From assembly GCA_947650365.1 (NCBI GenBank), contig OX393556.1, forward strand, positions 80,790,579 through 80,854,578: a stretch of 64,000 bases of DNA, read 5' to 3'. Each line of letters opens with the position of its first letter. Position 1 is the first letter of the stretch. Origin of the DNA: Chamaelirium japonicum. Its lineage: Eukaryota; Streptophyta; Magnoliopsida; Liliales; Melanthiaceae. Under the pieces are notes generated by a model. The model saw only the letters and a list, made by a program, of their open reading frames with translations, made no database searches and was not told the origin of the DNA. Of the stretch, positions 6,202 to 61,340 are shown in pieces. The position numbers and the translations under genes are program-made.

Positions 6202-6862
6202 TGTATGAATGAATTAGAATGGATCGTACGAATGAATTAGAGTTGATACATTCGTGCGAATGAATTAGAATGGATCGTACGAATGAATTAGATTGGATCG
6301 TATGAATGAATTATAATGGATCATGCGAATGAATTAGAATAGATCATACGAATGAATTAGAATGGATCGTACGAATGAATTAGAATGGATACATTCGTGC
6401 AAAGGAATTAGAATGGATTGTATGAATGAATTAGAATGGATCGTGCGAATGAATTAGAATGGATACATTCGTGCGAATGAATTAGAATGGATCGTATGAA
6501 TGAATTAGATTGGATCGTATGAATGAATTAGAATGGATCGTGCGAATGAATTAGAATGGATCGTCTGAATGAATTAGAATGGATCGTACTTATGAATTAG
6601 AATAGGTCATACGAATGAAATAGAATGGATCGTACGAAGGAATTAGAAAGGATCGTACAAACGAATTAGAATGGATCGTATGAATGAAATAGAATAGATC
6701 GTACGAATGAATTAGAATGGATCGTATGAATGAATTAGATTGGATCGAATGAATGAATTAGAATGGATTGTACGAATGAAATAGAATAGATCGTACGAAT
6801 GAATTAGAATGGATCGTGCGAATGAATTAGAATGGGTCGTACGAATGAATTAGAATGGATAC
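6202..6862 (-). repeat. R block 8 (HOR copy 1)
   Basis: Ends at gatacacgatccagatcc, where an 8-bp acgatcca remnant separates R from F. Confidence 0.92.
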
Positions 6863-7775: not shown

Positions 7776-8630
7776 ATGAATGAATTAGAATAGATTGTGC
7801 GAATGAATTAGAATGGATCGTACGAATGAATTAGAATGGATACATTCGTGCGAATGAATTAGAATGGATCGAATGAATGAATTAGATTCGATCGTACGAA
7901 TGAATTAGAATGGATCATGCGAATGAATTAGAATGGATCGTACGAATGAATTAGAATGGATCGTACGAATGAAATAGAATGGATTGTACGAATGAGATAG
8001 AATGGATCGTACGAATGAATTAGAATGGATACATTCATGCGAATGAATTAGAATGGATCATACGAATGAATTAGAATGGATTCATTCGTGCGAATGAATT
8101 AGAATGGATCGTAGGAATGAGTAAGAATGGATCGTACGAATGAATTAGAATGGATTGAATTAGAATGAATCGTACGAATGAATTAGAATGGATAGATTCG
8201 TGCGAATGAATTTGAATGGATCGTACGAAGGAATTAGAATAGACCGTACGAAGGAATTAGAATAGATCATACGAAGAAATTGGAATGGATCGTACGAATG
8301 AATTAGAATGGATCGTATGAATGAATTAGAATGGATCGTGCGAATGAATTAAAATGGATCGTATGAATGAAATAGAATGGATCGTATTAATTAGAATGGA
8401 TCGTACGAATAAAATAGAATGGATCGTATGAATGAATTAGAATGGATCGTGCGAATGAATTAGAATGGATCGTACGAATGAATTAGAATAGATTGTGCGA
8501 ATGAATTAGAATGGATCGTACGAATGAATTAGAATGGATCGTACGAATGAATTAGAATGGATCGTATGAATGAATTAGAATGGATCGTGCGAATGAATTA
8601 GAATGGATCGTACGAATGAAATAGAATGGA
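7776..8630 (-). repeat. R block 10 (HOR copy 1)
   Basis: Contains one gaatgaatcgtacg short-monomer pair near 8160. It ends at ggattcgcacgaatg, closing the HOR. Confidence 0.92.
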
Positions 8631-9588
8631 TTCGCACGAATGTATCCATTCTAATTTATTCGTACGATCCATTCTAATTCATTCGTACAATCCATTCTAA
8701 TTCATTCGCACGATCGATTCGCATTCACTCAAACGATCCATTCTAATTCATTCATATGATCCATTCTAATTCATTCGCACGAATGTATCCATTCTAATTC
8801 ATTCGTACGATCCATTCTAATTCATTTGTACGAATGTATCCACTCTAATTCATTCATACGATCCATTCTAATTCATTCGCACGAATGTATCCATTCCAAT
8901 TCATTCGTACGATCCATTCTAACTCATTCGCACAATCTATTCTAATTCATTCGTACGATCAATTCTAATTCAATAGCATGATCCATTCTAATTCATTCGT
9001 ACGACCTATTCTATTCCATTCGTACAATCCATTCTTACTCAATCGTATGATCCATTCTAATCCATTCACACAATCTATTCTAATTCATTCGTACGATCCA
9101 TTCTATTTCATTCGTACGATCCCTTCTAATTCATACGATCCTTTCTAATTCATTCGTACGATCCATTCTAATTCCTTCGTACGATCCATTCTAATTCATT
9201 CGTACGATCCATTCTAATTCATTCGCACGATCCATTCTAATCATTCGTACGATCCATTCTATTTCATTCAAACGATCCAATCTAATTCATTCATACGATC
9301 TATTCTAATTCTTTCGCACGAATGTATCCATACTAATTTAATCGTACGATCCATTCCAATTCATTCGCACGATCCATTCTAATTCATTCATACAATCCAT
9401 TCTAATTCTTTTGCACGAATGTATCAATTCAAATTCATTCGTTTGATCCATTCTAATTCATTCGTACGATCCATTCTAATTCATTCGCACGATCCATTCT
9501 AATTCATGCATACGATCCAATCTAATTCATTCATACGATCCATTCTAATTCATTCGCACGAATGTATCCTTTCTAATTCATTCGTACA
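8631..9588 (+). repeat. F block 11 (HOR copy 2)
   Basis: Counterpart of 5243-6201 with a 1-bp deletion near 9240. It ends at ACATGT. Confidence 0.92.
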
Positions 9589-10249
9589 TGTATGAATGAA
9601 TTAGAATGGATCGTACGAATGAATTAGAGTTGATACATTCGTGCGAATGAATTAGAATGGATCGTACGAATGAATTAGATTGGATCGTATGAATGAATTA
9701 TAATGGATCATGCGAATGAATTAGAATAGATCATACGAATGAATTAGAATGGATCGTACGAATGAATTAGAATGGATACATTCGTGCAAAAGAATTAGAA
9801 TGGATTGTATGAATGAATTAGAATGGATCGTGCGAATGAATTAGAATGGATACATTCGTGCGAATGAATTAGAATGGATCATATGAATGAATTAGATTGG
9901 ATCGTATGAATGAATTAGAATGGATCGTGCGAATGAATTAGAATGGATTGTCTGAATGAATTAGAATGGATCGTACTTATGAATTAGAATGGGTCATACG
10001 AATGAAATAGAATGGATCGTACGAAGGAATTAGAAAGGATCGTACAAACGAATTAGAATGGATCGTATGAATGAAATAGAATAGATCGTACGAATGAATT
10101 AGAATGGATCGTATGAATGAATTAGATTGGATCGTATGAATGAATTAGAATGGATTGTACGAATGAAATAGAATAGATCGTACGAATGAATTAGAATGGA
10201 TCGTGCGAATGAATTAGAATGGGTCGTACGAATGAATTAGAATGGATAC
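9589..10249 (-). repeat. R block 12 (HOR copy 2)
   Basis: Counterpart of 6202-6862, ending at gatacacgatccagatcc. Confidence 0.92.
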
Positions 10250-11162
10250 ACGATCCAGATCCATTCTAATTCATTCACACAATCTATTCTAATTCATTCG
10301 TAGGATCCATTCTAATTCATTACTACGATCCATTCTAATTCATTCATATGATCCATTCTAATTCATTCATACGATCCATTCAAAATCATTCGCACGATCC
10401 ATTCTAATTCATTCATACGATCCATTCTAATTCATTCGTACGATCTATTCTATTTCATTCGTACGATCTATTCTATTTCATTCGTACAATCCATTCTAAT
10501 TCATTCATACGATCCAATCTAATTCATTCATATGATCCATTCTAATTCATTCGTACGATCTATTCTATTTCATTCATACGATCCATTCTAATTCGTTTGT
10601 ACGATCCTTTCTAATTCCTTCGTAGGATCCATTCTATTTCATTCGTATGACCCATTCTAATTCATAAGTACGATCCATTCTAATTCATTCAAACGATCCA
10701 TTCTAATTCATTCGTACAATCCATTCTAATTCATTCGTACGATCCATTCTAATTCATTTGCACGAAGGTATCTATTCTAATTCATTCGTACTATCCATTC
10801 TAATTCCTTCGTACAATCCATTCTAATTCCTTCGTACGATCCATTCTAATTCATTCGCACAATCTATTCTAATTCATTCATACGATCCATTCTAATTTAT
10901 TCGCACGATCCATTGTAATTCATTCATACGATCCGTTCTAATTCATTCATATGATCCATTCTAATTCATTCGCACGATCCATTCTAATTCATTCGTACGA
11001 TCCATTCTAATTCATTCGCACGATCCATTCTAATTCATTCGCACGATCCATTCTAATTCATTCGTACGATCCATTCTAATTCATTCGTAAGATCTAATCT
11101 AATTCATTCATACGATCCATTCTAATTCTTTCGCACGAATGTATCCATTCTAATTCATTCGT
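10250..11162 (+). repeat. F block 13 (HOR copy 2)
   Basis: Counterpart of 6863-7775, ending at cgtatg. Confidence 0.92.
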
Positions 11163-12017
11163 ATGAATGAATTAGAATAGATTGTGCGAATGAATTAGAA
11201 TGGATCGTACGAATGAATTAGAATGGATACATTCGTGCGAATGAATTAGAATGAATCGAATGAATGAATTAGATTCGATCGTACGAATGAATTAGAATGG
11301 ATCATGCGAATGAATTAGAATGGATCGTACGAATGAATTAGAATGGATCGTACGAATGAAATAGAATGGATTGTATGAATGAGATAGAATGGATCGTACG
11401 AATGAATTAGAATGGATACATTCATGCGAATGAATTAGAATGGATCATACGAATGAATTAGAATGGATTCATTCGTGCGAATGAATTAGAATGGATCGTA
11501 GGAATGAGTAAGAATGGATCGTACGAATGAATTAGAATGGATTGAATTAGAATGAATCGTACGAATGAATTAGAATGGATAGATTCGTGCGAATGAATTT
11601 GAATGGATCGTACGAAGGAATTAGAATGGACCGTACGAAGGAATTAGAATAGATCATACGAAGAAATTGGAATGGATCGTACGAATGAATTAGAATGGAT
11701 CGTATGAATGAATTAGAATGGATCGTGCGAATGAATTAAAATAGATCGTATGAATGAAATAGAATGGATCGTATGAATTAGAATGGATCGTACGAATGAA
11801 ATAGAATGGATCGTATGAATGAATTAGAATGGATCGTGCGAATGAATTAGAATGGATCGTACGAATGAATTAGAATAGATTGTGCGAATGAATTAGAATG
11901 GATCGTACGAATGAATTAGAATGGATCGTACGAATGAATTAGAATGGATCGTATGAATGAATTAGAATGGATCGTGCGAATGAATTAGAATGGATCGTAC
12001 GAATGAAATAGAATGGA
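11163..12017 (-). repeat. R block 14 (HOR copy 2)
   Basis: Counterpart of 7776-8630. It carries a deleted monomer (gtatgaattagaatgg, near 11.77 kb) and ends at ggattcgcacgaatg. Confidence 0.92.
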
Positions 12018-12976
12018 TTCGCACGAATGTATCCATTCTAATTTATTCGTACGATCCATTCTAATTCATTCGTACAATCCATTCTAATTCATTTGCACGA
12101 TCGATTCGCATTCACTCAAACGATCCATTCTAATTCATTCATATGATCCATTCTAATTCATTCGCACGAATGTATCCATTCTAATTCATTCGTACGATCC
12201 ATTCTAATTCATTTGTACGAATGTATCCACTCTAATTCATTCATACGATCCATTCTAATTCATTCGCACGAATGTATCCATTCCAATTCATTCGTACGAT
12301 CCATTCTAATTCCTTCGCACAATCTATTCTAATTCATTCGTACGATCAATTCTAATTCAATAGCATGATCCATTCTAATTCATTCGTACGACCTATTCTA
12401 TTCCATTCGTACAATCCATTCTTACTCAATCGTATGATCTATTCTAATCCATTCGCACAATCTATTCTAATTCATTCGTACGATCCATTCTATTTCATTC
12501 GTACGATCCCTTCTAATTCATACGATCCTTTCTAATTCATTCGTACGATCCATTCTAATTCCTTCGTACGATCCATTCTAATTCATTCGTACGATCCATT
12601 CTAATTCATTCGCACGATCCATTCTAATTCATTCGTACGATCCATTCTATTTCATTCAAACGATCCAATCTAATTCATTCATACGATCTATTCTAATTCT
12701 TTCGCACGAATGTATCCATACTAATTTAATCGTACGATCCATTCTAATTCATTCGCACGATCCATTCTAATTCATTCATACAATCCATTCTAATTCTTTT
12801 GCACGAATGTATCAATTCAAATTCATTCGTTTGATCCATTCTAATTCATTCGTACGATCCATTCTAATTCATTCGCACGATCCATTCTAATTCATGCATA
12901 CGATCCAATCTAATTCATTCATACGATCCATTCTAATTCATTCGCACGAATGTATCATTTCTAATTCATTCGTACA
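12018..12976 (+). repeat. F block 15 (HOR copy 3)
   Basis: Counterpart of 5243-6201, ending at ACATGT (12974-12979). Confidence 0.92.
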
Positions 12977-13636
12977 TGTATGAATGAATTAGAATGGATC
13001 GTACGAATGAATTAGAGTTCATACATTCGTGCGAATGAATTAGAATGGATCGTACGAATGAATTAGATTGGATCGTATGAATGAATTATAATGGATCATG
13101 CGAATGAATTAGAATAGATCATACGAATGAATTAGAATGGATCGTACGAATGAATTAGAATGGATACATTCGTACAAAAGAATTAGAATGGAATATATGA
13201 ATGAATTAGAATGGATCGTGCGAATGAATTAGAATGGATACATTCGTGCGAATGAATTAGAATGGATCGTATGAATGAATTAGATTGGATCGTATGAATG
13301 AATTAGAATGGATCGTGCGAATGAATTAGAATGGATCGTCTAAATGAATTAGAATGGATCGTACTTATGAATTAGAATGGGTCATACGAATGAAATAGAA
13401 TGGATCGTACGAAGGAATTAGAAAGGATCGTACAAACGAATTAGAATGGATCGTATGAATGAAATAGAATAGATCGTACGAATGAATTAGAATGGATCGT
13501 ATGAATGAATTAGATTGGATCGTATGAATGAATTAGAATGGATTGTACGAATGAAATAGAATAGATCGTACGAATGAATTAGAATGGATCGTGCGAATGA
13601 ATTAGAATGGGTCGTACGAATGAATTAGAATGGATA
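12977..13636 (-). repeat. R block 16 (HOR copy 3)
   Basis: Ends at gatacacgatccagatcc. Confidence 0.92.
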
Positions 13637-14642
13637 CACGATCCAGATCCATTCTAATTCATTCACACAATCTATTCTAATTCATTCGTAGGATCCATTC
13701 TAATTCATTACTACGATCCATTCTAATTCATTCATATGATCCATTCTAATTCATTCATACGATCCATTCTAAATCATTCGCACGATCCATTCTAATTCAT
13801 TCATACGATCCATTCTAATTCATTCGTACGATCTTTTCTATTTCATTCGTACAATCCATTCTTACTCAATCGTATGATCCATTCTAATCCATTCGCACAA
13901 TCTATTCTAATTCATTCGTACGATCTATTCTATTTCATTCGTACGATCTATTCTATTTCATTCGTACAATCCATTCTAATTCATTCATACGATCCAATCT
14001 AATTCATTCATATGATCCATTCTAATTCATTCGTACGATCTATTCTATTTCATTCATACGATCCATTCTAATTCGTTTGTACGATCCTTTCTAATTCCTT
14101 CGTAGGATCCATTCTATTTCATTCGTATGACCCATTCTAATTCATAAGTACGATCCATTCTAATTCATTCAAACGATCCATTCTAATTCATTTGTACAAT
14201 CCATTCTAATTCATTCGTACGATCCATTCTAATTCATTTGCCCGAAGGTATCTATTCTAATTCATTCGTACTATCCATTCTAATTCCTTCGTACAATCCA
14301 TTCTAATTCCTTCGTACGATCCATTCTAATTCATTCGCACAATCTATTCTAATTCATTCATACGATCCATTCTAATTTATTCGCACGATCCATTCTAATT
14401 CATTCATACGATCCATTCTAATTCATTCATATGATCCATTCTAATTCATTCGCACGATCCATTCTAATTCATTCGTACGATCCATTGTAATTCATTCGCA
14501 CGATCCATTCTAATTCATTCGCACGATCCATTCTAATTCATTCGTACGATCCATTCTAATTCATTCGTAAGATCCAATCTAATTCATTCATACGATCCAT
14601 TCTAATTCTTTCGCACGAATGTATCCATTCTAATTCATTCGT
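13637..14642 (+). repeat. F block 17 (HOR copy 3)
   Basis: 92 bp longer than its counterparts (insertion 13851-13942). It ends at cgtatg. Confidence 0.92.
13851..13942 (+). repeat. 92-bp (4-monomer) insertion in HOR copy 3
   Basis: Copies 1 and 2 go directly from a tctattctatttc monomer pair to an acaatcc monomer; copy 3 has four more 23-bp monomers here. Three of the four resemble the run near 12.41-12.48 kb of the same HOR copy (cattcttactcaatcgtatg, then taatccattcgcacaatc). This suggests that the source was internal. Confidence 0.88.
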
Positions 14643-15993
14643 ATGAATGAATTAGAATAGATTGTGCGAATGAATTAGAATGGATCGTACGAATGAATTA
14701 GAATGGATACATTCGTGCGAATGAATTAGAATGGATCGAATGAATGAATTAGATTCGATCGTACGAATGAATTAGAATGGATCATGCGAATGAATTAGAA
14801 TGGATCGTACGAATGAATTAGAATGGATCGTACGAATGAAATAGAATGGATTGTACGAATGAGATAGAATGGATCGTACGAATGAATTAGAATGGATACA
14901 TTCATGCGAATGAATTAGAATGGATCATACGAATGAATTAGAATGGATTCATTCGTGCGAATGAATTAGAATGGATCGTAGGAATGAGTAAGAATGGATC
15001 GTACGAATGAATTAGAATGGATTGAATTAGAATGAATCGTACGAATGAATTAGAATGGATAGATTCGTGCGAATGAATTTGAATGGATCGTACGAAGGAA
15101 TTAGAATGGACCGTACGAAGGAATTAGAATAGATCATACGAAGAAATTGGAATGGATCGTACGAATGAATTAGAATGGATCGTATGAATGAATTAGAATG
15201 GATCGTGCGAATGAATTAGAATGGATCGTATGAATGAAATAGAATGGATCGTATGAATTAGAATGGATCGTACGAATGAAATAGAATGGATCGTACGAAT
15301 GAATTAGAATAGATTGTGCGAATGGATTAGAATGGATCATACGATTGAGTAAGAATGGATTGTATGAATGAAATAGAATAGATCGTACGAATGAATTAGA
15401 ATGGATCATGCTAATGAATTAGAATGGATCGTGCGAATGAATTAGAATGGATCGTACGAATGAATTAGAATGGATCGTACGAATGAATTAGAATGGATCG
15501 TATGAATTAGAATGGATCGTACGAAGGAATTAGAATGGATCGTATGAATGAATTAGATTGGATCGTATTAATGAATTTGAATGGATCTTGCGAATGAATT
15601 AGAATGGATCGTACGAATGAAATAGAATGGATTGTATGAATGAATTAGAATAGATCGTGCGAATGAATTAGAATAGATCGTACGAATGAATTAGAATGGA
15701 TCATATGAATGAATTAGAATGGATCGTACGTATGAATTAGAATGGATCGTGCGAATGAATTAGAATGGATCGTATGAATGAATTAGAGTAGATACATTCG
15801 TACGAAGGAATTAGAATGGATCGTACAAATGAATTAGAATGGATTATATAAATGAATTAGAATGGATCGTACGAATGAATTAGAATGGATACATTCGTGC
15901 GAATGAATTAGAATGGATTGTACGAATAAATTAGAATGGATCGTACGAATGAATTAGAATAGATTGTACGAATGAATTAGAATGGATCGTACG
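14643..15993 (-). repeat. R block 18
   Basis: HOR sequence to about 15293, then a segment shared with 43.4-44.1 kb. It ends at gtacgtctaattc. Confidence 0.9.
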
Positions 15994-26654: not shown

Positions 26655-27644
26655 TGTATGAATGAATTAGAATGGATCGTACGAATGAATTAGAGTTGAT
26701 ACATTCGTGCGAATGAATTAGAATGGATCGTACGAATGAAATAGATTGGATCGTATGAATGAATTATATTGGATCATGCGAATGAATTAGAATAGATCAT
26801 ACGAATGAATTAGAATGGATCGTACGAATGAATTAGAATGGATACATTCGTGCAAAAGAATTAGAATGGATTGTATGAATGAATTAGAATGGATCGTGCG
26901 AATGAATTAGAATGGATACATTCGTGCGAATGAATTAGAATGGATCGTATGAATGAATTAGATTGGATCGTATGAATGAATTAGAATGGATCATATGAAT
27001 GAATTAGAATGGATCATACGAATGAATTAGAATGGATCGTATGAATGAATTAGAATGGATTGTACGAATGAATTAGAATGGATCGTTTGAATGAATTAGA
27101 ATGGATCGTACTTATGAATTAGAATGGGTCATACGAATGAAATAGAATGGATCGTACGAAGGAATTAGAAAGGATCGTACAAACGAAATAGAATGGATCG
27201 TATGAATGAAATAGAATAGATCGTACGAATGAATTAGAATGGATCGTATGAATGAATTAGATTGGATCGTATGAATGAATTAGAATGGATTGTACGAATG
27301 AAATATAATAGATCGTACGAATGAAATAGAATGGATCGTACGAATGAATTAGAATCGATTGTGCGAATGGATTAGAATGGATCATACGATTGAGTAAGAA
27401 TGGATTGTACGAATGAAATAGAATAGATCGTACGAATGAATTAGAATGGATCGTACGAATGAATTAGAATGGATCGTATGAATGAATTAGAATGGATCGT
27501 GCGAATGAATTAGAATGGATCGTACGAATGAATTAGAATGGATCGTATGAATGAATTAGAATGGATCATAGTAATGAATTAGAATGGATCCTACGAATGA
27601 ATTAGAATAGATTGTGCGAATGAATTAGAATGGATCTGGATCGT
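26655..27644 (-). repeat. R block 34
   Basis: Ends at gatctggatcgtgtatcc, the inverse of the HOR switch at 6863. Confidence 0.9.
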
Positions 27645-28327
27645 GTATCCATTCTAATTCATTCGTACGACCCATTCTAATTCATTCGCACGATCTATTC
27701 TAATTCATTCGTACGATCTATTCTATTTCATTCGTACAATCCATTCAAATTCATTCATACGATCCAATCTAATTCATTCATACGATCCATTCTAATTCAT
27801 TCGTACGATCTATTCTATTTCATTCATACGATCCATTCTAATTCGTTTGTACGATCCTTTCTAATTCCTTCGTACGATCCATTCTATTTCATTCGTATGA
27901 CCCATTCTAATTCATAAGTACGATCCATTCTAATTCATTCAAACGATCCATTCTAATTCATTCGTACGATCCATTCTAATTCATTCACATGATCCATTCT
28001 AATTCATTCATACGATCCAATCTAATTCATTCATACGATCCATTCTAATTCATTCGCACGAATGTATCCATTCTAATTTATTCGCACGATCCATTCTAAT
28101 TCATTCATACAATCCATCTAATTCTTTTGCATGAATGTATCCATTCTAATTCATTCGTACGATCCATTCTAATTCATTCGTATTATCTATTCTAATTCAT
28201 TCGCATGATCCATTATAATTTATTCATACGATCCAATCTAATTCATTCGTACGATCCATTCTAATTCATTCGCACGAATGTATCAACTCTAATTCATTCG
28301 TACGATCCATTCTAATTCATTCATACA
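27645..28327 (+). repeat. F block 35
   Basis: Ends at cattcatacatgtacgaatg, the only inverted copy of the ACATGT switch. Confidence 0.9.
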
Positions 28328-41672: not shown

Positions 41673-42002
41673 CGTACGATCCATTCTTACTCATTCGTAA
41701 GATCCATTCTAATTCATTGGCACGAATGTATCCATTCTAATTCATTCGTACGATCCACTCTAATTCATTTGTACGATCCATTCCAATTCATTCTAATTCT
41801 AATTCATTCGCACGAATGTATCCATTCTAATTCATTCGTACGATCCATTCTAATTCATTCGCACAATCTATTCTAATTCATTCGTACGATCCATTCTAAT
41901 TCATTCGCACGATCCATTCTAATTCATTTGCATGATCCATTCTAATTCATTCATACAATCCATTCTAATTCTTTTGCACGAATGTATCCATTCTAATTCA
42001 TT
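41652..42002 (+). repeat. F block 53
   Basis: Spans the boundary of the two 898-bp units. It ends at attcattacgaatgag. Confidence 0.9.
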
Positions 42003-42579
42003 ACGAATGAGTAAGAATGGATTGTACGAATGAATTAGAATGGATATATTCGTGCGAATGAATTAGAATGGATCATACGAATGAGTAAGAATGGATCGTA
42101 CGAATGAAATAGAATGGATTGTACGAATGAATTAGAATGGATCGTGCGAATGAATTAGAATGGATCGTACGAATGAATTAGAATGGATCGTACGAAGGAA
42201 TTAGAATGGATCGTACGAATGAATTAGAATGGATCGTACGAATGAATTAGAATGGATCAAACGAATGAATTAAAATGGATACATTCGTGTAAAGGAATTA
42301 GAATGGATTGTATGAATGAATTTGAATGGATCGTGCGAATGAATTAGAATGGATCGTACGAATGAATTAGAATGGATACATTCGTGCGAAAGAATTAGAA
42401 TAGATCGTATGAATGAATTAGAATGGATCGTATGAATGAAATAGAATGGATCGTACGAATGAATTAGAATGGATCGTACGAAGGAATTAGAATGGATCGT
42501 ACGAATGAATTCGAATGTATCGTACGAATGAATTAGAATGGATCGTACATACGATCCATTCTAATTCCTTCGTACGATC
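41673..42579. repeat. 898-bp tandem duplication, unit 2
   Basis: Direct repeat of the preceding 898 bp with scattered base changes. The equivalent place in the 10-kb-spaced copy (50.9-51.8 kb) has the unit once only, so the duplication is younger than the 10-kb event or was lost from the other copy. Confidence 0.92.
42003..42549 (-). repeat. R block 54
   Basis: Copy of 41105-41651, ending at cgtacatacgatcc. Confidence 0.9.
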
Positions 42580-42982
42580 TATTATAATTCATTCGTACGA
42601 TCCATTCTAATTCATTCGCACGATCCATTCTAATTCATTCGTACGATCCATTCTATTTCATTCATACGATCCATTCTAATTCATTCATACGATCTATTCT
42701 AATTCTTTCGCACGAATATATACATTCTAATTCATTCGTACGATCCATTCTAATTTATTCGCACGATCCATTCTAATTCATTCATACAATCCATTCTAAT
42801 TCTTTTGGACGAATGTATCCATTCTAATTCATTCGTTCGATCCATTCTAATTCATTCGTACGATCCATTCTAATTCATTCGCACGGTCCATTCTAATTCA
42901 TGCATACGATCCAATCTAATTCATTCATACGATCCATTCTAATTCATTCGCACGAATGTATCCATTCTAATTCATTCGTACA
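42550..42982 (+). repeat. F block 55
   Basis: Leaves the 10-kb duplication at 42900. It ends at ACATGT (42980-42985). Confidence 0.9.
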
Positions 42983-44141
42983 TGTATGAATGAATTAGAA
43001 TGGATCGTACGAATGAATTAGAGTTGATACATTCGTGCGAATGAATTAGAATGGATCGTACGAATGAATTAGATTGGATCGTATGAATGAATTATAATGG
43101 ATCATGCGAATGAATTAGAATAGATCATACGAATGAATTAGAATGGATCGTACGAATGACTTAGAATGGATACATTCGTGCAAAAGAATTAGAATGGATT
43201 GTATGAATGAATTAGAATGGATCGTGCGAATGAATTAGGATGGATACATTCGTGCGAATGAATTAGAATGGATCGTATGAATGAATTAGATTGGATCGTA
43301 TGAATGAATTAGAATGGATCGTGCGAATGAATTAGAATGGATCGTACGAATGAATTAGAATGGATCGTACGAATGAATTAGAATGGATCGTACGAATGAA
43401 TTAGAATGGATCGTATGAATTAGAATGGATCGTACGAAGGAATTAGAATGGATCGTATGAATGAATTAGATTGGATCGTATTAATGAATTTGAATGGATC
43501 GTATGAATGAATTAGATTGGATCGTATGAATGAATTAGAATGGATCTTACGAATGAATTAGAATGGATCATACGAATGAAATAGAATGGATTGTATGAAT
43601 GAATTAGAATAGATCGTGCGAATGAATTAGAATGGATCGTACGAATGAATTAGAATGGATCATATGAATGAATTAGAATGGATCGTACGTATGAATTAGA
43701 ATGGATCGTGCGAATGAATTAGAATGGATCGTATGAATGAATTAGAGTAGATACATTCGTACGAAGGAATTAGAATGGATCGTACGAATGAATTAGAATG
43801 GATTATATGAATGAATTAGAATGGATCGTACGAATGAATTAGAATGGATCGTACAAATGAATTAGAATGGATCGTGGGAAAGAATTAGAATGGATTGTAT
43901 GAATGAATTAGAATGGATCGTATGAATGAATTAGAGTAGATACATTCGTACGAAGGAATTAGAATGGATTGTACGAATGAATTAGAATGGATTATATGAA
44001 TAAATTAGAATGGATCGTACGAATGAATTAGAATGGATACATTCGTGCGAATGAATTAGAATGGATTGTACGAATAAATTAGAATGGATCGTACGAATGA
44101 ATTAGAATAGATTGTACGAATGAATTAGAATGGATTGTACG
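42983..44141 (-). repeat. R block 56
   Basis: From about 43.4 kb it copies 15.5-15.99 kb, including a local repeat of gagtagatacattcg (43.75 and 43.93 kb). It ends at gtacgtctaattc. Confidence 0.9.
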
Positions 44142-44620
44142 TCTAATTCATTCGTACGATCCATTCTAATTCATTCATACAATCCATTCTACTTCTTTTG
44201 CACGAATGTATCCATTCTAATTCATTCATACGATCCATTCTAATTCCTTCGTACGATCCATTCTAATTCCTTCGTACGATCCATTCTAATTCATTCCCTT
44301 GAATGTATCCATTCTAATTGATACGTACGATCCATTCTATTTCATTCGTATGATCCATTCTTATTCATTCGTACGATCCAATCTAATTCATTCATACGAT
44401 CCATTCTATGATCCATTCTAATTCATTCGTACGTTCCATTCTAATTCATTAGCACGATCAATGCTAATTCATTCGTACGATCCATTCTAATTCATTCGTA
44501 CAATCCATTCTATTTCATTCGTACGATCCATTCTTACTCATTCGTATGATCCATTCTAATTCATTCGCACGAATGTATCCATTCTAATTCATTCGTACAA
44601 TCCATTCTTACTCATTCGTA
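44142..44620 (+). repeat. F block 57
   Basis: Contains cgtacgttcc and acgatcaatgc. It ends at ctcattcgtaatgaat. Confidence 0.9.
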
Positions 44621-45519
44621 ATGAATTAGAATGGATACATTCGTGCAAAAGAATTAGAATGGATTGTATGAATGAATTAGAATGGATCGTGCAAATGAAT
44701 TAGAATGGATCGTGCGAATGAATTAGAATGGATCGTACGAATGAATTAGAATAGATTGTGTGAATGAATTAGAATGGATCGTACGAATGAATTAGAATGG
44801 ATACATTCGTGCAAATGAATTAGAATTAGAATGAATTGGAATGGATCGTACGAATGAATTAGAGTGGATCGTATGATTGAATTAGAATGGGTACATTCGT
44901 GCCAATGAATTAGAATGGATCTTACGAATGAGTAAGAATGGATCGTACAAATGAAGTAGAATGGATTGTACGAATGAATTAGAATGGATTCATTCGTGCG
45001 AATGAATTAGAATGGATCGTACGAATGAATTAGAATGGATCGTACGAATGAATTAGAATGGATCGTGTGAAAGAATTAGAATGGATTGTATGAATGAATT
45101 AGAATGGATCGTATGAATGAATTAGAATGGATTGGACGAATGAATTAGATTGGATCGTACGAATGAATTAGAATGGATCGTACGAATGAATTAGAATGGA
45201 TACATTCGTGCGAATGAATTAGAATGGATAATACAAATGAGTAAGAATGGATCGTACGAATGAAATAGAATGGATTGTACGAATGAATTAGAATTGATCG
45301 TACGAATGAATTAGAATAGATTGTATGAATGAATTAGAATGGATACATTCGTGCAAATGAATTAGAATGGATCGTACGAATGAATTAGAATAGATCGTGC
45401 GAATGAATTAGAATGGATCGTACGAATGAATTAGAATAGATTGTGCAAATGAATTAGAATGGATCGTATGAATGAATTAGATTATGATCCATTTTATTTC
45501 ATTCGTATGATCCATTCTA
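44469..45519 (-). repeat. Palindrome near 42862, right arm
   Basis: Inverted partner of 40205-41255. It also matches parts of the 52.6-59.5 kb palindrome: direct to 56.5-57.3 kb and inverted to 54.9-55.5 kb. One block (44621-45484) is about 430 bp longer than its counterpart there. Confidence 0.85.
44621..45484 (-). repeat. R block 58
   Basis: Ends at gaattagattatgatcc, the inverse of the 40240 switch. Confidence 0.9.
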
Positions 45520-46342
45520 ATTCCTTCGTACAATCTAATTCATTCATACGATCCATTCTAATTCATTCGCACGAATGTATCCATTCAAATTCATTCGTAC
45601 GATCCATTCTAATTCATTCGCACGATCCATTCTAATTCATTCGTACGATCCATTCTAATTCATTTATATGATCCAATCTAATTCATTCATACAATCCATT
45701 CTAATTCATTTGCACGAATTTATCCATTCTAATTCATTCGTATGATCCATTCTAATTCATTCGCACAATCTATTCTAATTCATTCGTACGATCCATTCTA
45801 ATTCATTCGTACGATCCATTCTAATTCATTCGCACGATCCATTCTAATTCATTCACACTCATACGATCCATTCTAATTCATTCGTACGAATGTATCCTTT
45901 CTAATTCATTCGTACGATCCATTCTAATTCATTCGCACAATCTAATTTAATTCATTCGAACGATCCATTCTAAGTCATTCATACGATCCATTCTAATTCA
46001 TTCGTACGATCCATTCTAATTCATTCGCACGATACATTCTATTTCATTCGTACGATCCATTCTAATTCATTCGCACGAATGTATCCATTCCAATTCATTC
46101 GTACGATCCATTCTAATTCATTCGCACGATCCATTCTAATTTATTCATACGATCCATTCTAATTCATTCATACGATCCATTTTAATTCATTCGCACGATC
46201 CATTCTAATTCATTCATACGATCCATTCAAATTCATTCGTACGATCCATTCTAATTTCTTCGTATGATCCATTCTAATTCCTTCGTACGATCCATTCTAA
46301 TTCCTTCGTACGATCCATTCAAATTCATTCGCACGAATCTAT
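45485..46342 (+). repeat. F block 59
   Basis: Enters the second 10-kb copy at about 46160. It ends at cgaatctatttgaatggg. Confidence 0.9.
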
Positions 46343-52310: not shown

Positions 52311-52734
52311 ATGAATTAGAATGGATACATTCGTGCAAAAGAATTAGAATGGATTGTATGAATGAATTAGAATGGATCATGCAAATGAATTAGAATGGAT
52401 CGTGCGAATGAATCAGAATGGATCGTACGAATGAATTAGAATAGATTGTGCGAATGAATTAGAATGGATCGTACGAATGAATTAGAATGGATACATTCGT
52501 GGGAATGAATTAGAATTAGAATGAATTGGAATGGATCGTACAAATGAATTAAAATTAGAATGAATTTGAATGGATCGTACAAATGAATAAGAGTGGATCG
52601 TACAAATGAATTAGAATGAATTAGAATGGATTGAATTAGAATAAATCGTACGAATGAATTAGAATGGATTGAATTAGAATAAATCGTACGAATGAATTAG
52701 AATGAATCATACGAATGAAATAAAATGGATCATA
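52311..52734 (-). repeat. R block 72
   Basis: Several shortened monomers (gaattagaattagaatg). The large palindrome starts inside it. It ends at ggatcataatctaattc. Confidence 0.9.
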
Positions 52735-53322
52735 ATCTAATTCATTCATACGATCCATTCTAATTCATTCGCACAATCTATTCTAATTCATTCGTACGAT
52801 CCATTCTAATTCATTCGCACGATCTATTCTAATTCATTCGTATGATGCATTCTAATTCATTCGCACGAATGTATCCATTCTAATTCATTCATACAATCTG
52901 TTCTAATTCATTCGTACGATCCATTCTAATTCATTCGTACAATCCATTCTATTTCATTCGTACGATCCATTCTTACTCATTCGTATGATCCATTCTAATT
53001 CATTCGCACGAATGTATCCATTCTAATTCATTCGTACGATCCATTCTAATTCATTCGTACGATCCATTCTAATTCATTCGTCCGATCCATTCTAATTCAT
53101 TCATACGATCCATTCTAATTCATTCATACAATCCATTCTAATTCTTTCACACGATCCATTCTAATTCATTCGTACGATCCATTCTAATTCATTCGTACGA
53201 TCCATTCTAATTCATTCGCACGAATGAATCCATTCTAATTCATTCGTACAATCCATTCTATTTCATTCGTACGATCCATTCTTACTCATTCTTAAGATCC
53301 ATTCTAATTCATTGGCACGAAT
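52735..53322 (+). repeat. F block 73
   Basis: Left-arm block, mirror of 58827-59394. It ends at ggcacgaatgagaatgg. Confidence 0.92.
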
Positions 53323-53517
53323 GAGAATGGATCGTATGAATGAAATAGAATAGATCGTACGAATGAATTAGAATGGATCGTATGAATGAATTAGATTGGA
53401 TCGTATGAATGAATTAGAATGGATTGTACGAATGAAATAGAATAGATCGTACGAATGAATTAGAATGGATCGTGCGAATGAATTAGAATGGGTCGTACGA
53501 ATGAATTAGAATGGATA
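53323..53517 (-). repeat. R block 74
   Basis: Mirror of 58631-58826; HOR-like. It ends at gatacacgatccagatcc. Confidence 0.92.
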
Positions 53518-53678
53518 CACGATCCAGATCCATTCTAATTCATTCGCACAATCTATTCTAATTCATTCGTAGGATCCATTCTAATTCATTACTACGATCC
53601 ATTCTAATTCATTCATACGATCCATTCTAATTCATTCGTACGATCCATTCTAATTCATTCGCACGATCCATTCTAATT
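53518..53678 (+). repeat. F block 75
   Basis: Mirror of 58474-58630. It ends at ttctaattaaatgg. Confidence 0.9.
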
Positions 53679-53713
53679 AAATGGATACCTTCGTGCAAAT
53701 GAATTAGAATGGA
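53679..53713 (-). repeat. R island (35 bp)
   Basis: About one and a half monomers. It ends at GGATCC (53711-53716) inside the perfect palindrome ttagaatggatccattctaa. Confidence 0.9.
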
Positions 53714-53755
53714 TCCATTCTAATTCATTCGTATGATCAATTCTAATTCATTCAT
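53714..53755 (+). repeat. F island (42 bp)
   Basis: Ends at attcatacgaagg, a fold-back across a catacg variant. Confidence 0.9.
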
Positions 53756-54864
53756 ACGAAGGAATTAGAATGGATCGTATGAATGAATTAGAATGGATCG
53801 TACGAATGAATTAGAATGAATCGTACGAAGGAATTACAATGGATCGTACGAAGGAATTAGAATGGATAGTACGAATGAATTAGAATGGATACCTTCGTGC
53901 AAATGAATTAGAATGGATCGTACGAATGAGTAAGAATGGATCGTACGAATGAAATAGAATAGATCGTATGAATGAATTAGAATGGATCGTGCGAATGAAT
54001 TAGAATGGATCGTACGAATGAATCAGAATAGATTGTGCGAATGAATTAGAATGGATCGTACGAATGAATAAGAATGGATCGTACGAATGAATTAGAATGG
54101 ATCGTACGAATGAGTAAGAATGGATCGTACGAATGAAATAGAATGGATCGTATGAATGAATTAGAATGGATACGTGCGAATGAATTAGAATTGATCGTAC
54201 GAATGAATTAGAATAGATTGTGCGAATGAATTAGAATGGATCGTACGAATGAATTGGAATGGATACATTCGTGCGAATGAATTAGAATGGATCGTACGAA
54301 TGAAATAGAATGTATTGTGCGAATGAATTAGAATGGATCGTACGAATGAATTAGAATGGATCGTACGAATGACTTAGAATGGATCGTTCGAATGAATTAG
54401 AATAGATTGTGCGAATGAATTAGAATGGATCGTACGAATGAATTAGAAAGGATACATTCGTGCGAATGAATTAGAATGGATCGTATGAGTGTGAATGAAT
54501 TAGAATGGATCGTGCGAATGAATTAGAATGGATCGTACGAATGAATTAGAATTGATCGTACGAATGAATTAGAATAGATTGTGCGAATGAATTAGAATGG
54601 ACCGTACGAATGAATTAGAATGGATAAATTCGTGCAAATGAATTAGAATGGATTGTATAAATGAATTAGATCGGATCGTATAAATGAATTAGAATGGATC
54701 GTACGAATGAATTAGAATGGATCGTGCGAATGAATTAGAATGGATCGTACGAATGAATTTGAATGGATACATTCGTGCGAATGAATTAGAATGGATCGTA
54801 TGAATGAATTAGATTGTACGAAGGAATTAGGATGGATCATACGAATGAAATAAAATGGATCATA
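53756..54864 (-). repeat. R block 78
   Basis: Mirror of 57288-58394. It carries the private bases used to establish the palindrome. It ends at ggatcataatctaattc. Confidence 0.92.
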
Positions 54865-55298
54865 ATCTAATTCATTCATATGATCCATTCTAATTCATTC
54901 GCACAATCTATTCTAATTCATTCGTACGATCTATTCTAATTCATTCGCACGATCTATTCTAATTCATTCATACGATCCATTCTTACTCATTCGTAAGATC
55001 CATTCTAATTCATTGGCACGAATGTATCCATTCTAATTCATTCATACGATCCACTCTAATTCATTCGTACGATCCATTCCAATTCATTCTAATTCTAATT
55101 CATTCGCACGAATGTATCCATTCTAATTCATTCGTACGATCCATTCTAATTCATTCGCACAATCTATTCTAATTCATTCGTACGATCCATTCTAATTCAT
55201 TCGCACGATCCATTCTAATTCATTTGCACGATCCATTCTAATTCATTCATACAATCCATTCTAATTCTTTTGCACGAATGTATCCATTCTAATTCATT
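54865..55298 (+). repeat. F block 79
   Basis: Mirror of 56853-57287. It ends at attcattacgaatgag. Confidence 0.92.
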
Positions 55299-55776
55299 AC
55301 GAATGAGTAAGAATGGATTGTACGAATGAATTAGAATGGATACATTCGTGCGAATGAATTAGAATGGATCATACGAATGAGTAGGAATGGATCGTACGAA
55401 TGAAATAGAATGGATTGTACGAATGAATTAGAATGGATCAAACGAATGAATTAGCATTGATCGTGCTAATGAATTAGAATGGAACGTACGAATGAATTAG
55501 AATGGATCGTAGAATGGATCGTATGAATGAATTAGATTGGATCGTACGAATGAGTAAGAATGGATCATACGAATGAAATAGAATGGATCGTACGTATAAA
55601 TTAGAATAGATACATTCATGGGAATGAATTAGAATGGATCGTACGAAGGAATTAGAATGGATCGTACGAAGGAATTAGAATGGATCGTATGAATGAATTA
55701 GAATGGATACATTCGTGCAAAAGAAGTAGAATGGATTGTATGAATGAATTAGAATGGATCGTACGAATGAATTAGG
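55299..55776 (-). repeat. R block 80
   Basis: Mirrored to 55702, then spacer. It ends at gaattaggcgtacgatcc. Confidence 0.9.
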
Positions 55777-56447
55777 CGTACGATCCATTCTAATTCATTC
55801 GTACAATCTATTCTAATTCATTCGTACGATCCATTCTAATTTATTCGTACAATCCATTCTAATTCATTCGCACGAATGTATCCATTCTAATTCATTCGTA
55901 TGATCCATTCTAATTCATTCATATAATCCATTCTAATTCATTCGTACGATCCATTCTAATTCCTTCGTACGAATATATCTACTCTAATTCATTCATACGA
56001 TCCATTCTAATTCATTCACACAATCCATTCTAATTCTTTCACACGATCCATTCTAATTCATTCGTACGACCCATTCTAATTCATTCGTACGATCCATTCT
56101 AATTCATTCATATAATCCATTCTAATTCATTCGTACGATCCATTCTAATTCCTTCGTACGAATGTATTTACTCTAATTCATTCATACGATCCATTCTAAT
56201 TCATTCGCACGATCCATTCTAATTCATACGTACGATCCATTCTAATTCATTCATATGATCCATTCTAATTCATTCGTACGATCCATTCTAATTCATTCGC
56301 ACGATCTATTCTAATTCATTCATACAATCCATTCTATTTCATTCGTACGATCCATTCTAATTCATTCGTAAGATCCATTCTAATTCATTCATACGATCCA
56401 ATCTAATTCATTCATACGATCCATTCAAATTCATTAATACGATCCAA
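55703..56447. repeat. Spacer of the large palindrome (745 bp)
   Basis: The non-mirrored centre between the 3-kb arms. It starts R and switches to F at about 55776 (attaggcgtacgatcc). It holds a partial local repeat at a 189-bp offset (atataatcc at 55921 and 56110). It resembles 16.76-17.1 kb directly and 15.5-16.0 kb inverted, so it is ordinary array sequence and no foreign insert. Confidence 0.85.
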
Positions 56448-56852
56448 TCTAATTCATTCATACGATCCATTCTAATTCCTTCGTACGATCCATTCTAATT
56501 CCTTCGTACGATCCATTCTAATTCATTCCCATGAATGTATCTATTCTAATTTATACGTACGATCCATTCTATTTCATTCGTATGATCCATTCTTACTCAT
56601 TCGTACGATCCAATCTAATTCATTCATACGATCCATTCTACGATCCATTCTAATTCATTCGTACGTTCCATTCTAATTCATTAGCACGATCAATGCTAAT
56701 TCATTCGTTTGATCCATTCTAATTCATTCGTACAATCCATTCTATTTCATTCGTACGATCCATTCCTACTCATTCGTATGATCCATTCTAATTCATTCGC
56801 ACGAATGTATCCATTCTAATTCATTCGTACAATCCATTCTTACTCATTCGTA
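55777..56852 (+). repeat. F block 81
   Basis: Spacer to 56447, then right arm. It ends at ctcattcgtaatgaat. Confidence 0.92.
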
Positions 56853-57287
56853 ATGAATTAGAATGGATACATTCGTGCAAAAGAATTAGAATGGATTGTA
56901 TGAATGAATTAGAATGGATCGTGCAAATGAATTAGAATGGATCGTGCGAATGAATTAGAATGGATCGTACGAATGAATTAGAATAGATTGTGCGAATGAA
57001 TTAGAATGGATCGTACGAATGAATTAGAATGGATACATTCGTGCGAATGAATTAGAATTAGAATGAATTGGAATGGATCGTACGAATGAATTAGAGTGGA
57101 TCGTATGAATGAATTAGAATGGATACATTCGTGCCAATGAATTAGAATGGATCTTACGAATGAGTAAGAATGGATCGTACGAATGAATTAGAATAGATCG
57201 TGCGAATGAATTAGAATAGATCGTACGAATGAATTAGAATAGATTGTGCGAATGAATTAGAATGGATCATATGAATGAATTAGATTA
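56853..57287 (-). repeat. R block 82
   Basis: Ends at gaattagattatgatcc. Confidence 0.92.
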
Positions 57288-58394
57288 TGATCCATTTTAT
57301 TTCATTCGTATGATCCATCCTAATTCCTTCGTACAATCTAATTCATTCATACGATCCATTCTAATTCATTCGCACGAATGTATCCATTCAAATTCATTCG
57401 TACGATCCATTCTAATTCATTCGCACGATCCATTCTAATTCATTCGTACGATCCATTCTAATTCATTTATACGATCCGATCTAATTCATTTATACAATCC
57501 ATTCTAATTCATTTGCACGAATTTATCCATTCTAATTCATTCGTACGGTCCATTCTAATTCATTCGCACAATCTATTCTAATTCATTCGTACGATCAATT
57601 CTAATTCATTCGTACGATCCATTCTAATTCATTCGCACGATCCATTCTAATTCATTCACACTCATACGATCCATTCTAATTCATTCGCACGAATGTATCC
57701 TTTCTAATTCATTCGTACGATCCATTCTAATTCATTCGCACAATCTATTCTAATTCATTCGAACGATCCATTCTAAGTCATTCGTACGATCCATTCTAAT
57801 TCATTCGTACGATCCATTCTAATTCATTCGCACAATACATTCTATTTCATTCGTACGATCCATTCTAATTCATTCGCACGAATGTATCCATTCCAATTCA
57901 TTCGTACGATCCATTCTAATTCATTCGCACAATCTATTCTAATTCATTCGTACGATCAATTCTAATTCATTCGCACGTATCCATTCTAATTCATTCATAC
58001 GATCCATTCTATTTCATTCGTACGATCCATTCTTACTCATTCGTACGATCCATTCTAATTCATTCGTACGATCCATTCTTATTCATTCGTACGATCCATT
58101 CTAATTCATTCGCACAATCTATTCTGATTCATTCGTACGATCCATTCTAATTCATTCGCACGATCCATTCTAATTCATTCATACGATCTATTCTATTTCA
58201 TTCGTACGATCCATTCTTACTCATTCGTACGATCCATTCTAATTCATTTGCACGAAGGTATCCATTCTAATTCATTCGTACTATCCATTCTAATTCCTTC
58301 GTACGATCCATTGTAATTCCTTCGTACGATTCATTCTAATTCATTCGTACGATCCATTCTAATTCATTCATACGATCCATTCTAATTCCTTCGT
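57288..58394 (+). repeat. F block 83
   Basis: Contains ccgatc at 57476 and ctgatt at 58124, mirrored in the left arm. It ends at cgtatg. Confidence 0.92.
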
Positions 58395-58436
58395 ATGAAT
58401 GAATTAGAATTGATCGTACGAATGAATTAGAATGGA
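58395..58436 (-). repeat. R island (42 bp)
   Basis: Mirror of 53714-53755. It ends at GGATCC (58434-58439). Confidence 0.9.
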
Positions 58437-58473
58437 TCCATTCTAATTCATTTGCACGAAGGTATCCATTTAA
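58437..58473 (+). repeat. F island (37 bp)
   Basis: Mirror of 53679-53713. It ends at atccatttaattagaat. Confidence 0.9.
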
Positions 58474-58630
58474 TTAGAATGGATCGTGCGAATGAATTAG
58501 AATGGATCGTACGAATGAATTAGAATGGATCGTATGAATGAATTAGAATGGATCGTAGTAATGAATTAGAATGGATCCTACGAATGAATTAGAATAGATT
58601 GTGCGAATGAATTAGAATGGATCTGGATCG
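58474..58630 (-). repeat. R block 86
   Basis: Ends at gatctggatcgtgtatcc, as at 27644. Confidence 0.92.
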
Positions 58631-58826
58631 TGTATCCATTCTAATTCATTCGTACGACCCATTCTAATTCATTCGCACGATCCATTCTAATTCATTCGTA
58701 CGATCTATTCTATTTCATTCGTACAATCCATTCTAATTCATTCATACGATCCAATCTAATTCATTCATACGATCCATTCTAATTCATTCGTACGATCTAT
58801 TCTATTTCATTCATACGATCCATTCT
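58631..58826 (+). repeat. F block 87
   Basis: Ends at ccattctcattcgtgcc, the inverse of the 53322 switch. Confidence 0.92.
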
Positions 58827-59394
58827 CATTCGTGCCAATGAATTAGAATGGATCTTAAGAATGAGTAAGAATGGATCGTACGAATGAAATAGAATGGATT
58901 GTACGAATGAATTAGAATGGATTCATTCGTGCGAATGAATTAGAATGGATCGTACGAATAAATTAGAATGGATCGTACGAATGAATTAGAATGGATCGTG
59001 TGAAAGAATTAGAATGGATTGTATGAATGAATTAGAATGGATCGTATGAATGAATTAGAATGGATCGGACGAATGAATTAGAATGGATCGTACGAATGAA
59101 TTAGAATGGATACATTCGTGCGAATGAATTAGAATGGATCATACGAATGAGTAAGAATGGATCGTACGAATGAAATAGAATGGATTGTACGAATGAATTA
59201 GAATGGATCGTACGAATGAATTAGAACAGATTGTATGAATGAATTAGAATGGATACATTCGTGCGAATGAATTAGAATGCATCGTACGAATGAATTAGAA
59301 TAGATCGTGCGAATGAATTAGAATGGATCGTACGAATGAATTAGAATAGATTGTGCGAATGAATTAGAATGGATCGTATGAATGAATTAGATTA
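58827..59394 (-). repeat. R block 88
   Basis: One monomer shorter than its mirror 52735-53322. It ends at gaattagattatgatcc. Confidence 0.92.
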
Positions 59395-61340
59395 TGATCC
59401 ATTTTATTTCATTCGTATGATTCATTCTAATTCATTCGTACGATTTATTCTAATTCAATCCATTCTAATTCATTCGTACGATCCATTCTAATTCATTCGT
59501 ACGATCCATTCTAATTTATTCGTACGATTCATTCTAATTCAATCCATTATAATTCATTCGTACGATCCATTCTTACTCATTCTTACGATCCATTCTAATT
59601 CATTCGCACGAATGAATCCATTCTAATTCATTCGTATGATCCATTCTAATTCATTCGTATGAATGTATCCATTCTAATTCATTCGTACGATCCATTCTAT
59701 CTCATTCGTACAATCCATTCTATTTCATTCGTACGATCCATTCTAATTCATTCGCACGATCCATTCTAATTCATTTATAGGATCCATCCTAATTCATTCG
59801 TACGATCGATTCTAATTCATTCATACGATCCATTCTAATTCATTCGCACGAATGTATCCATTCTAATTCATTCGTACGATCCATTCTAATTCATTCACAC
59901 AATCTATTCTAATTCATTCATACGATCCATTCTAATTTATTCGCACGATCCATTCTAATTCATTCATACGATCCATTCTAATTCATTCATATGATCCATT
60001 CTAATTCATTCGCACGATCCATCTTACTCATTCGTACGATCCATTCTAATTCATTCGCACAATCTATTCTAATTCATTCGTACGATCCATTCTAATTCAT
60101 TCGCACGATCCATTCTAATTCATTCATACGATCCATTCTATTTCATTCGTACGATCTATTCTTACTCATTCGTACGATCCATTCTAATTCATTTGCATGA
60201 AGGTATCCATTCTAATTTATTCGTACTATCCATTCTAATTCCTTCGTACGATCCATTCTAATTCCTTCGTGCGAATCCATTCTATTTCATTCGTACGATC
60301 CATTCTAATTCATTCGCACGATCCATTCTAATTCATTCATACGATCCATTCTAATTCATTCGTACGATCCATTCTAATTTATTCGTACGATCCATTCTAA
60401 TTCATTCGCACAATCTATTCTAATTCATTCGTACGATCCATTCTAATTCATTCGCACGATCCATTCTAATTCATTCATACGATCCATTCTATTTCATTCG
60501 TACGATCCATTCTTACTCATTCGTACGATCCATTCTAATTCATTTGCACGAAGGTATCCATTCTAATTCATTCGTACTATCCATTCTAATTCCTTCGTAC
60601 GATCCATTCTAATTCTTTCGTACGATCCATTCTAATTCATTCGTACGATCCATTCTAATTCATTCGTACGATCCATTCTAATTCCTTCGTATGATCCATT
60701 CTAATTCATTCGTACGGTATGATTCATTCTAATTCATTCGTACGATTCATTCTAATTCAATCTATTCTAATTCATTCGAACGATCCATTCTAATTCTTTC
60801 GTACGATCCATTCTAATTCATTCGTACGATTCATTCTAATTCAATCCATTCTAGTTCATTCGTACGATCCATTCTTACTCATTCGTACGATCCATTCTAA
60901 TTCATTCGCACGAATGAATCCATTCTAATTCAATCGTATGATCCATTCTAATTCATTCGCATGAATGTATCCATTCTAATTCATTTGTACGATCCATTCT
61001 ATCTCATTCGTACAATCCATTCTATTTCATTCGTACGATCCATTCTAATTCATTCGCACGATCCATTCTAATTCATTCGCATGATCCATTCTAATTCATT
61101 CGTACGATCTATTCTAATTCATTCATACGATCCATTCTAATTCATTCGCACGAATGTATCCATTCTAATTCATTCGTACGATCCATTCTAATTCATTCGC
61201 ACAATCTATTCTAATTCAATCATACGATCAATTCTAATTCATTCGTACGATCCATTCTAATTCATTCATACGATCCATTCTAATTAATTCGTACGATCCA
61301 TTCTAATTCATTCGTATGATCCATTCTAATTCATTCGCAC
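59395..61340 (+). repeat. F block 89 (1.9 kb)
   Basis: 1.3-kb-family sequence. It ends at attcgcacgaatggatc, a fold-back across a cgcacg variant. Confidence 0.92.
59410..61320 (+). repeat. ~1.3-kb tandem periodicity, right-hand region
   Basis: The landmarks of the 1.6-4.1 kb region return in the same order. The ttctatctcattcg site lies at 59695 and 60998 (1303 bp apart), and a gtatg cassette at 60714. The left edge joins the outer end of the large palindrome. Confidence 0.78.

Follow-up and report, generated by a model that had tools for sequence, protein, structure and literature searches.

A near-identical 3-kb palindrome beside its apparent unduplicated form in a probable Chio satellite array of Chamaelirium japonicum

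Background

The CENH3-bound satellite of the holocentromeres of Chionographis japonica (Chamaelirium japonicum, Melanthiaceae, in the NCBI taxonomy) comprises two monomers, Chio1 (23 bp) and Chio2 (28 bp), which are separated by a 5-bp deletion and a 1-bp substitution and carry an 8-bp dyad; it forms arrays of mixed forward and reverse orientation with higher-order repeats and high CpG methylation, is unlike any known sequence, and belongs to an assembly in which 100 centromere units were reported (PMC10264360). A 9-bp motif, TTCGTACGA, is found in both the 23-bp monomer of Chio and the 60-bp monomer of Chama, and Chio arrays alternate in orientation often, whereas the Chama arrays of the monocentric sister species Chamaelirium luteum are consistently oriented; hairpin-driven breakage and repeat turnover have been raised as an idea for these plants (PMC12722358). 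How centromeric satellites grow and switch their orientation is the open question addressed here through a window of 64 kb of C. japonicum (contig OX393556.1, positions 80,790,579 to 80,854,578, the whole stretch analysed), in which a palindrome with arms of about 3 kb, made of satellite, probably arose by a recent fold-back inverted duplication.

Processes that could produce such a structure have been described in other organisms. Human inverted duplications with single-copy spacers of 766-70,466 bp carry short inverted homology at the spacer edge and have been attributed to a break followed by fold-back within the strand (PMC3907307). In yeast, fold-back inversions proceed via hairpins whose loops are small or large (PMC7467729), and inverted repeats up to 30 kb apart are able to interact in single-stranded DNA (PMC10164571). 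In satellite arrays, macro-dyad symmetries are, according to the authors who describe them, documented in Tribolium only (PMC13081366). The mixed orientation of Chio and the macro-dyads of Tribolium are already published; what is new is the unduplicated form that appears to survive beside the palindrome. In the literature searched, and as far as the excerpts of it used here extend, no account was found of a recent fold-back palindrome within a satellite array next to its unduplicated form, which is not a claim that none is in print.

A palindrome with near-identical arms

The palindrome is real in this sequence. Self-alignment returned the two arms and the spacer between them (Table 1) at the coordinates proposed in an earlier account made from the letters alone (the sequence-only reading), and the path of a two-orientation hidden Markov model (HMM) likewise bore out the eight polarity switches that this account saw mirrored in each arm. 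Over 3035 aligned columns, the arms differ by one 23-bp gap and by four substitutions (52843, 53190, 53734, and 54970), the latter being an addition to the earlier account. The resulting divergence of 0.13% (4/3035) is the lowest among 12 pairwise comparisons, the other 11 of which span 0.80-3.62%. Similarity falls sharply beyond the arm ends, with 41 of the 45 mismatches and eight of the nine gaps of the extended alignment lying outside the arms. Moreover, no exact inverted match in the window is longer than one of 1235 bp inside the arms (53735-54969/57181-58415), and the longest such match in each of 20 control arrays, in which monomers had been shuffled among positions of like polarity, measured 136-172 bp; with 1235 bp set against a maximum of 172 bp, a chance likeness of satellite blocks is rejected as the source of the palindrome.

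The sequence-only reading had also pointed to single-base variants private to the arms. The short words that it named are not private, as AATCAG occurs at 5 places in the window, GATCGG at 8, and TTACAAT at 9; two longer contexts, GAATCAGAATAG and TTAGATCGG, are confined to the two arms. Similarly, its one length change was found to be the sole gap, although the 23-bp monomer is better understood as lost from the right arm than as extra in the left, because all three aligned paralogs (near 40, 45, and 50 kb) carry it. By comparison with paralogs, the change at 52843 sits in arm 1 and that at 53190 in arm 2; for the other two positions, that search gave no paralog. All four substitutions are transitions and three of them fall at CpG, in what is very likely a satellite reported to be rich in mCpG (PMC10264360); the proposal that the arm differences are CpG decay throughout is rejected (3/4, not 4/4). 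Transitions at CpG make up less than half of the differences in most of the other pairs (e.g., 9/50, 7/27, 19/53, and 27/77).

Table 1. Coordinates of the palindrome, of its related loci, and of the edges discussed in the text (positions in the window)
Feature	Position	Strand	Description
Left arm (arm 1)	52645..55702	+	3058 bp, eight polarity switches
Spacer (proposed retained loop)	55703..56447	.	745 bp; runs on from arm 1 in the paralog at 43-45 kb
Right arm (arm 2)	56448..59482	-	3035 bp, inverted copy of arm 1 without one 23-bp monomer
23-bp monomer	53016..53038	+	In arm 1 and in paralogs at 40, 45, and 50 kb; not in arm 2
Proposed nucleating inverted repeat, left half	55652..55702	+	51 bp, perfect
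Proposed nucleating inverted repeat, right half	56448..56498	-	The derived junction would fall inside it
Unduplicated paralog, inner part of arm 1 and spacer	43334..45080	-	39 of 1716 columns differ; the lowest ~90 bases lie beyond the shared part
Unduplicated paralog, inverted-repeat half	43417..43470	+	54 bp, perfect; 745 bp to the other half
Unduplicated paralog, other inverted-repeat half	44216..44269	-	54 bp, perfect
Second copy of the unduplicated junction	15475..15575	-	Equals 43388-43488 over 101 bp; surrounding spacer partly shared
Arm 1 outer edge	52614..52704	+	38 bp duplicated in tandem (perfect, 2.4 copies); nothing in the rest of the window matches this edge closely without gaps
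Arm 2 outer edge	59440..59530	+	Unbroken in paralogs, with a single mismatch at 39763 and two at each of 25029, 49894, and 63599

An unduplicated form in the same window

The inner part of arm 1 and the spacer are present a second time, inverted, in the paralog at 43-45 kb, where no second arm follows them. The junction between arm 1 and the spacer (55640-55740) has an identical counterpart of 101 bp there, at 44178 on the minus strand. The junction between the spacer and arm 2 (56430-56530) lacks an equivalent of this kind: its best gapless match, at 23110 with 4/101 mismatches, lies within a stretch that is only 86.8% identical over 400 bp, the latter value coming from a self-comparison (also the basis of the window mosaic considered below) that left out some rows between 31 and 33.4 kb. 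Specifically, after the 51-bp half of the inverted repeat, the palindrome continues into the inverted copy of arm 1, and the 43-45 kb locus, like the locus at 15-16 kb that has this arrangement in part, continues into other satellite. The latter locus shares the spacer only in part and holds the unduplicated junction without a single mismatch over 101 bases, the next best match in a gapless search of the window having 8 mismatches. As the unduplicated junction is found at two loci and that of the palindrome at one, the junction between the spacer and arm 2 appears to be derived, and we infer that the state lacking arm 2 is probably the older. A former palindrome at 43-45 kb that has since lost its second arm is disfavoured, because the 15-16 kb locus has the identical unduplicated junction.

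The 43-45 kb paralog also carries a perfect inverted repeat of 54 bp, the halves of which occupy the positions of the palindrome's inner edges and are spaced by exactly the length of its spacer. It is the longest of the 51 exact inverted matches of at least 30 bp in 42990-45100; in the same stretch, 54 of the 34,049 in-phase base pairs of opposite polarity that lie up to 2500 bp apart (0.16%) fall within an exact inverted match of at least 51 bp. The location of this repeat at the inner edges, its rank, and its identical spacing suggest that the pairing of inverted repeats began the copy.

A probable fold-back origin and its alternatives

The palindrome is thus best read, at a probability of roughly two in three, as a recent fold-back inverted duplication at a pre-existing short inverted repeat, the loop of which was kept as the spacer. 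The starting arrangement would have consisted of the inner part of arm 1, the spacer, an inverted copy of 51/54 bp of the end of arm 1, and other satellite. A strand that had broken or stalled with its end within or close to the distal repeat would have folded back onto the complementary repeat, 745 bp upstream, and paired with it; from there its end would have primed a copy of some 3 kb of arm 1. The loop would have stayed as the spacer and the new end would have been rejoined to satellite on the right side. Later on, arm 2 would have lost one monomer, each arm would have acquired one or more point mutations, and arm 1 would have had its outer flank rearranged. The satellite may ease such events because its many inverted blocks already supply pairing partners. 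Template switching at a replication fork (PMC10766183) would give a similar inner junction and is indistinguishable here from break repair. The outcome would be the growth of the array and the alternation of repeat orientation in a probable centromere unit, and no encoded function is proposed.

Of the two origins entertained by the sequence-only reading, recent inverted duplication or ongoing conversion between the arms, the first is favoured by the low divergence of the arms relative to the other 11 pairs compared and by the apparently derived junction, and the second is neither needed nor demonstrated. In its full form, the conversion account holds that an older inverted pair was kept near-identical by gene conversion in the manner of Y-chromosome palindromes, with the second arm of the 43-45 kb copy lost. 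Conversion would likewise yield a divergence of 0.13% with sharp tract ends, and the unduplicated junction common to the two loci could have spread by copying; however, the paralogs that lack a second arm diverge by 2.27% (43-45 kb) or, in the spacer, by more (15-16 kb), so the palindrome can simply be younger, and the lost monomer and the four scattered transitions leave no patchwork of converted and unconverted tracts across 3 kb. This history is considered unlikely. A still less probable source of arm 2 is another array, from which it would have been pasted by inter-array conversion, re-integration of extrachromosomal circular DNA (eccDNA), or inversion between copies rather than made by a local fold-back. 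The window is indeed a mosaic with long exact copies tens of kilobases apart in both orientations, and spread of arrays by inter-locus conversion or eccDNA has been proposed (PMC10264360), but pasting predicts neither an inner edge on the longest inverted repeat of the 42990-45100 stretch nor an unchanged spacer. Lastly, the palindrome could be an assembly or library artefact, either a fold-back chimeric read or mis-joined satellite, since artificial palindromes are known in long reads after whole-genome amplification (PMC6218980). Against this stand the missing monomer and the four transitions, three of them at CpG, the flanks that are unlike on the two sides, and, if the published assembly is the same one, its 58.5x HiFi reads from high-molecular-weight DNA (PMC10264360); the two sites informed by paralogs place one change in each arm, and changes present in both arms weigh against a read artefact. 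It is judged very improbable.

Several observations weigh against the fold-back origin itself. The satellite is rich in short inverted repeats, each of the 20 shuffled arrays containing at least 918 exact inverted matches of at least 60 bp, and the rank taken by the 54-bp repeat changes with the chosen ends of the stretch, being 3 of 131 in 42600-45400 and 14 of 296 in 42000-46000. The 43-45 kb copy is a mere proxy for the ancestor, at 2.27% divergence, and the 15-16 kb locus shares just part of the spacer. The 101-bp identity inside loci that are otherwise clearly diverged makes recent copying between them possible; the two unduplicated junctions may then be non-independent and count as one witness, which would make the loss of a second arm at 43-45 kb conceivable. 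Moreover, the palindrome is known from the assembled sequence, a point that also favours an artefact, and the identity of the satellite set out below comes from published text descriptions and not from consensus letters.

The outer edges, too, misfit a simple one-step event: that of arm 2 is contiguous in paralogs and that of arm 1 is unique, with no gapless match elsewhere in the window below 27 mismatches in 91. A rare variant 49 bp past arm 2 is found in the window only at 40107, 50239, and 59531. Most simply, the arms would at first have been longer, and the flank of arm 1 would have undergone rearrangement once the duplication had taken place; an exchange between the arms that flipped the spacer is a possible alternative. 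Near this edge lies an inverted pair of 373 identical bases (51107-51479/52129-52501), which is 2.21% divergent over a longer alignment.

Identity and polarity of the satellite

A single satellite fills the window from end to end according to Tandem Repeats Finder. Among 2577 anchor spacings of at most 60 bp, 2100 measure 23 bp and 289 measure 28 bp, and the commonest 23-mer (ATTCTAATTCATTCGTACGATCC) and the commonest 28-mer (ATTCTAATTCATTCGCACGAATGTATCC) are related by a 5-bp deletion and a 1-bp substitution. The 23-bp consensus is matched by 92% of the bases on the HMM path, the motif TTCGTACGA occurs 480 times and a further 387 times on the opposite strand, and the dyad TCGTACGA, which we infer to be the published 8-bp dyad, occurs 860 times. 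The four sequence features compared with the published descriptions, namely the monomer sizes, the deletion and substitution, the motif together with the dyad, and the alternating orientation, were all found, and the satellite of the window is very likely Chio1/Chio2. The common 28-bp monomer holds a mini inverted repeat, CATTCG-CA-CGAATG (61 and 50 exact occurrences), which may itself be a small fold-back insertion.

No open reading frame of at least 120 amino acids (ATG, GTG, or TTG starts, table 11), no tRNA, and no Rfam match at the gathering score was found in the window, ruling out coding, tRNA, or known-RNA content. Likewise, words of 22, 29, or 30 bases from the window had no exact match in collections of viral or prokaryote genome contigs and 56442-59249 had no blastn match to plasmids or phages, and on these searches a relatedness of the satellite to prokaryotes, phages, or plasmids was ruled out.

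Polarity switches 91 times in the 64 kb, both on the HMM path and by exact markers. Single-linkage clustering at 88% identity within this window collapses the 91 junctions to 18 families of forward-to-reverse (+-) and seven of reverse-to-forward (-+) switches, which suggests that many switches spread via later duplication. Four of the 18 (+-) families lie at the register of TCGTACGA (binomial p 0.007) and two of the seven (-+) families at that of GATC (p 0.03); a preference of switches for monomer dyads is a weak signal and was not built on, because further dyad registers had also been inspected.

Other duplications in the window

Exact matches of at least 175 bp number 30 inverted and 37 direct in the window, and none of that length arose in the 20 shuffles. 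A higher-order unit of 3.4 kb is present in three direct copies with several polarity switches (4695-14960), the pairs being 0.80-1.63% apart and the third copy having 92 extra bases relative to the other two. A direct duplication (36500-39859/46568-49990) has an offset of about 10.1 kb and a divergence of 1.59%. A second palindrome (24859-27382/27647-30100) encloses a spacer of 264 bp (27383-27646) and is 3.13% divergent over a span that differs slightly, with 1.38% for its core; its loop resembles that of a small inverted repeat in the 3.4-kb unit (spacer 263, 9953-10190/10454-10691). As a replicate of the proposed mechanism, this palindrome is suggestive only, with a 115-bp gap in the alignment. 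Shorter exact copies (e.g., the 373-bp inverted pair and a direct pair of 560 bp) cannot be ranked in age against the main palindrome.

Within arm 1, 222 bp (53324-53545) recur without change at 10055-10276 and 13443-13664, at distances of 43.3 and 39.9 kb, and this match starts where the homology to the blocks at 40 and 50 kb stops (53323); the arm seems to have been a mosaic already before its duplication. A palindrome of already inverted satellite blocks had been called unusual, a view that the published mixed-orientation blocks of Chio, at least two further inverted duplications in the window, and the almost equal frequency of long exact inverted and direct matches (30 and 37) temper. The present palindrome is the longest near-identical case of a kind and, because other inverted duplications occur in the window, one member of that kind rather than a unique structure.

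Significance

The 64 kb appear to contain the states before and after one inverted duplication, with the probable pairing repeat visible. Unequal crossing-over produces direct copies only. That fold-back copying at existing inverted repeats is among the main engines by which Chio arrays grow is a tentative proposal that we consider rather doubtful; if true, it would explain why Chio orientation alternates every few hundred bases to few kilobases whereas the arrays of C. luteum are consistently oriented, and each polarity switch would give partners for the next fold-back, so that inversion begets inversion. With what look like both states at hand, the idea of breakage and repeat turnover driven by hairpins becomes countable across the 100 reported centromere units. 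In scope, this is one event in one window, and it lies in a short-monomer centromeric satellite, a setting in which such events could account for the alternation of polarity.

Comparison with known systems

The window resembles the published Chio1/Chio2 (PMC10264360) in its major 23-bp and minor 28-bp monomers, the indel and substitution between them, TTCGTACGA, the dyad, the mixed blocks, and the higher-order repeats. It differs in that near-identical palindromes of kilobase size and their junctions are not described in the excerpts of that paper used here, and in that CENH3 binding is published for Chio, whereas the window is represented by its letters.

With the human fold-back inverted duplications that have a disomic spacer (PMC3907307), the palindrome has in common the adjacent inverted copy, the single-copy spacer, and the inverted homology at the spacer edge. 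Specifically, an unduplicated spacer lies between the arms, with paralogs elsewhere in the satellite; the inverted homology that would be ancestral is found at the spacer edge in the 43-45 kb paralog as a stand-in for the ancestor; and the junction between the spacer and the inverted copy seems to have the derived form, as judged from two unduplicated loci that are perhaps not independent. The scale is different, megabases there and 3 kb here, and the present palindrome is interstitial, inside a satellite, with no terminal deletion seen; the homology measures 51-54 bp here and, in the human cases as excerpted, 2-8 bp in 13 junctions and about 300 bp in three. Origin-dependent inverted-repeat amplification (ODIRA), in the excerpted account (PMC10766183), yields inverted triplications, whereas two near-identical copies only are present here.

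The macro-dyad symmetries of Tribolium satellites (PMC13081366) are alike in consisting of kilobase inverted sub-arrays at (peri)centromeric positions with recurring inversion junctions, and inverted sub-arrays of kilobase size and recurring inversion sites are both found within this window. The repeats have no known kinship as far as the excerpts of that paper go, and the difference lies in the arms, which here match base by base as a recent copy and not in mere polarity.

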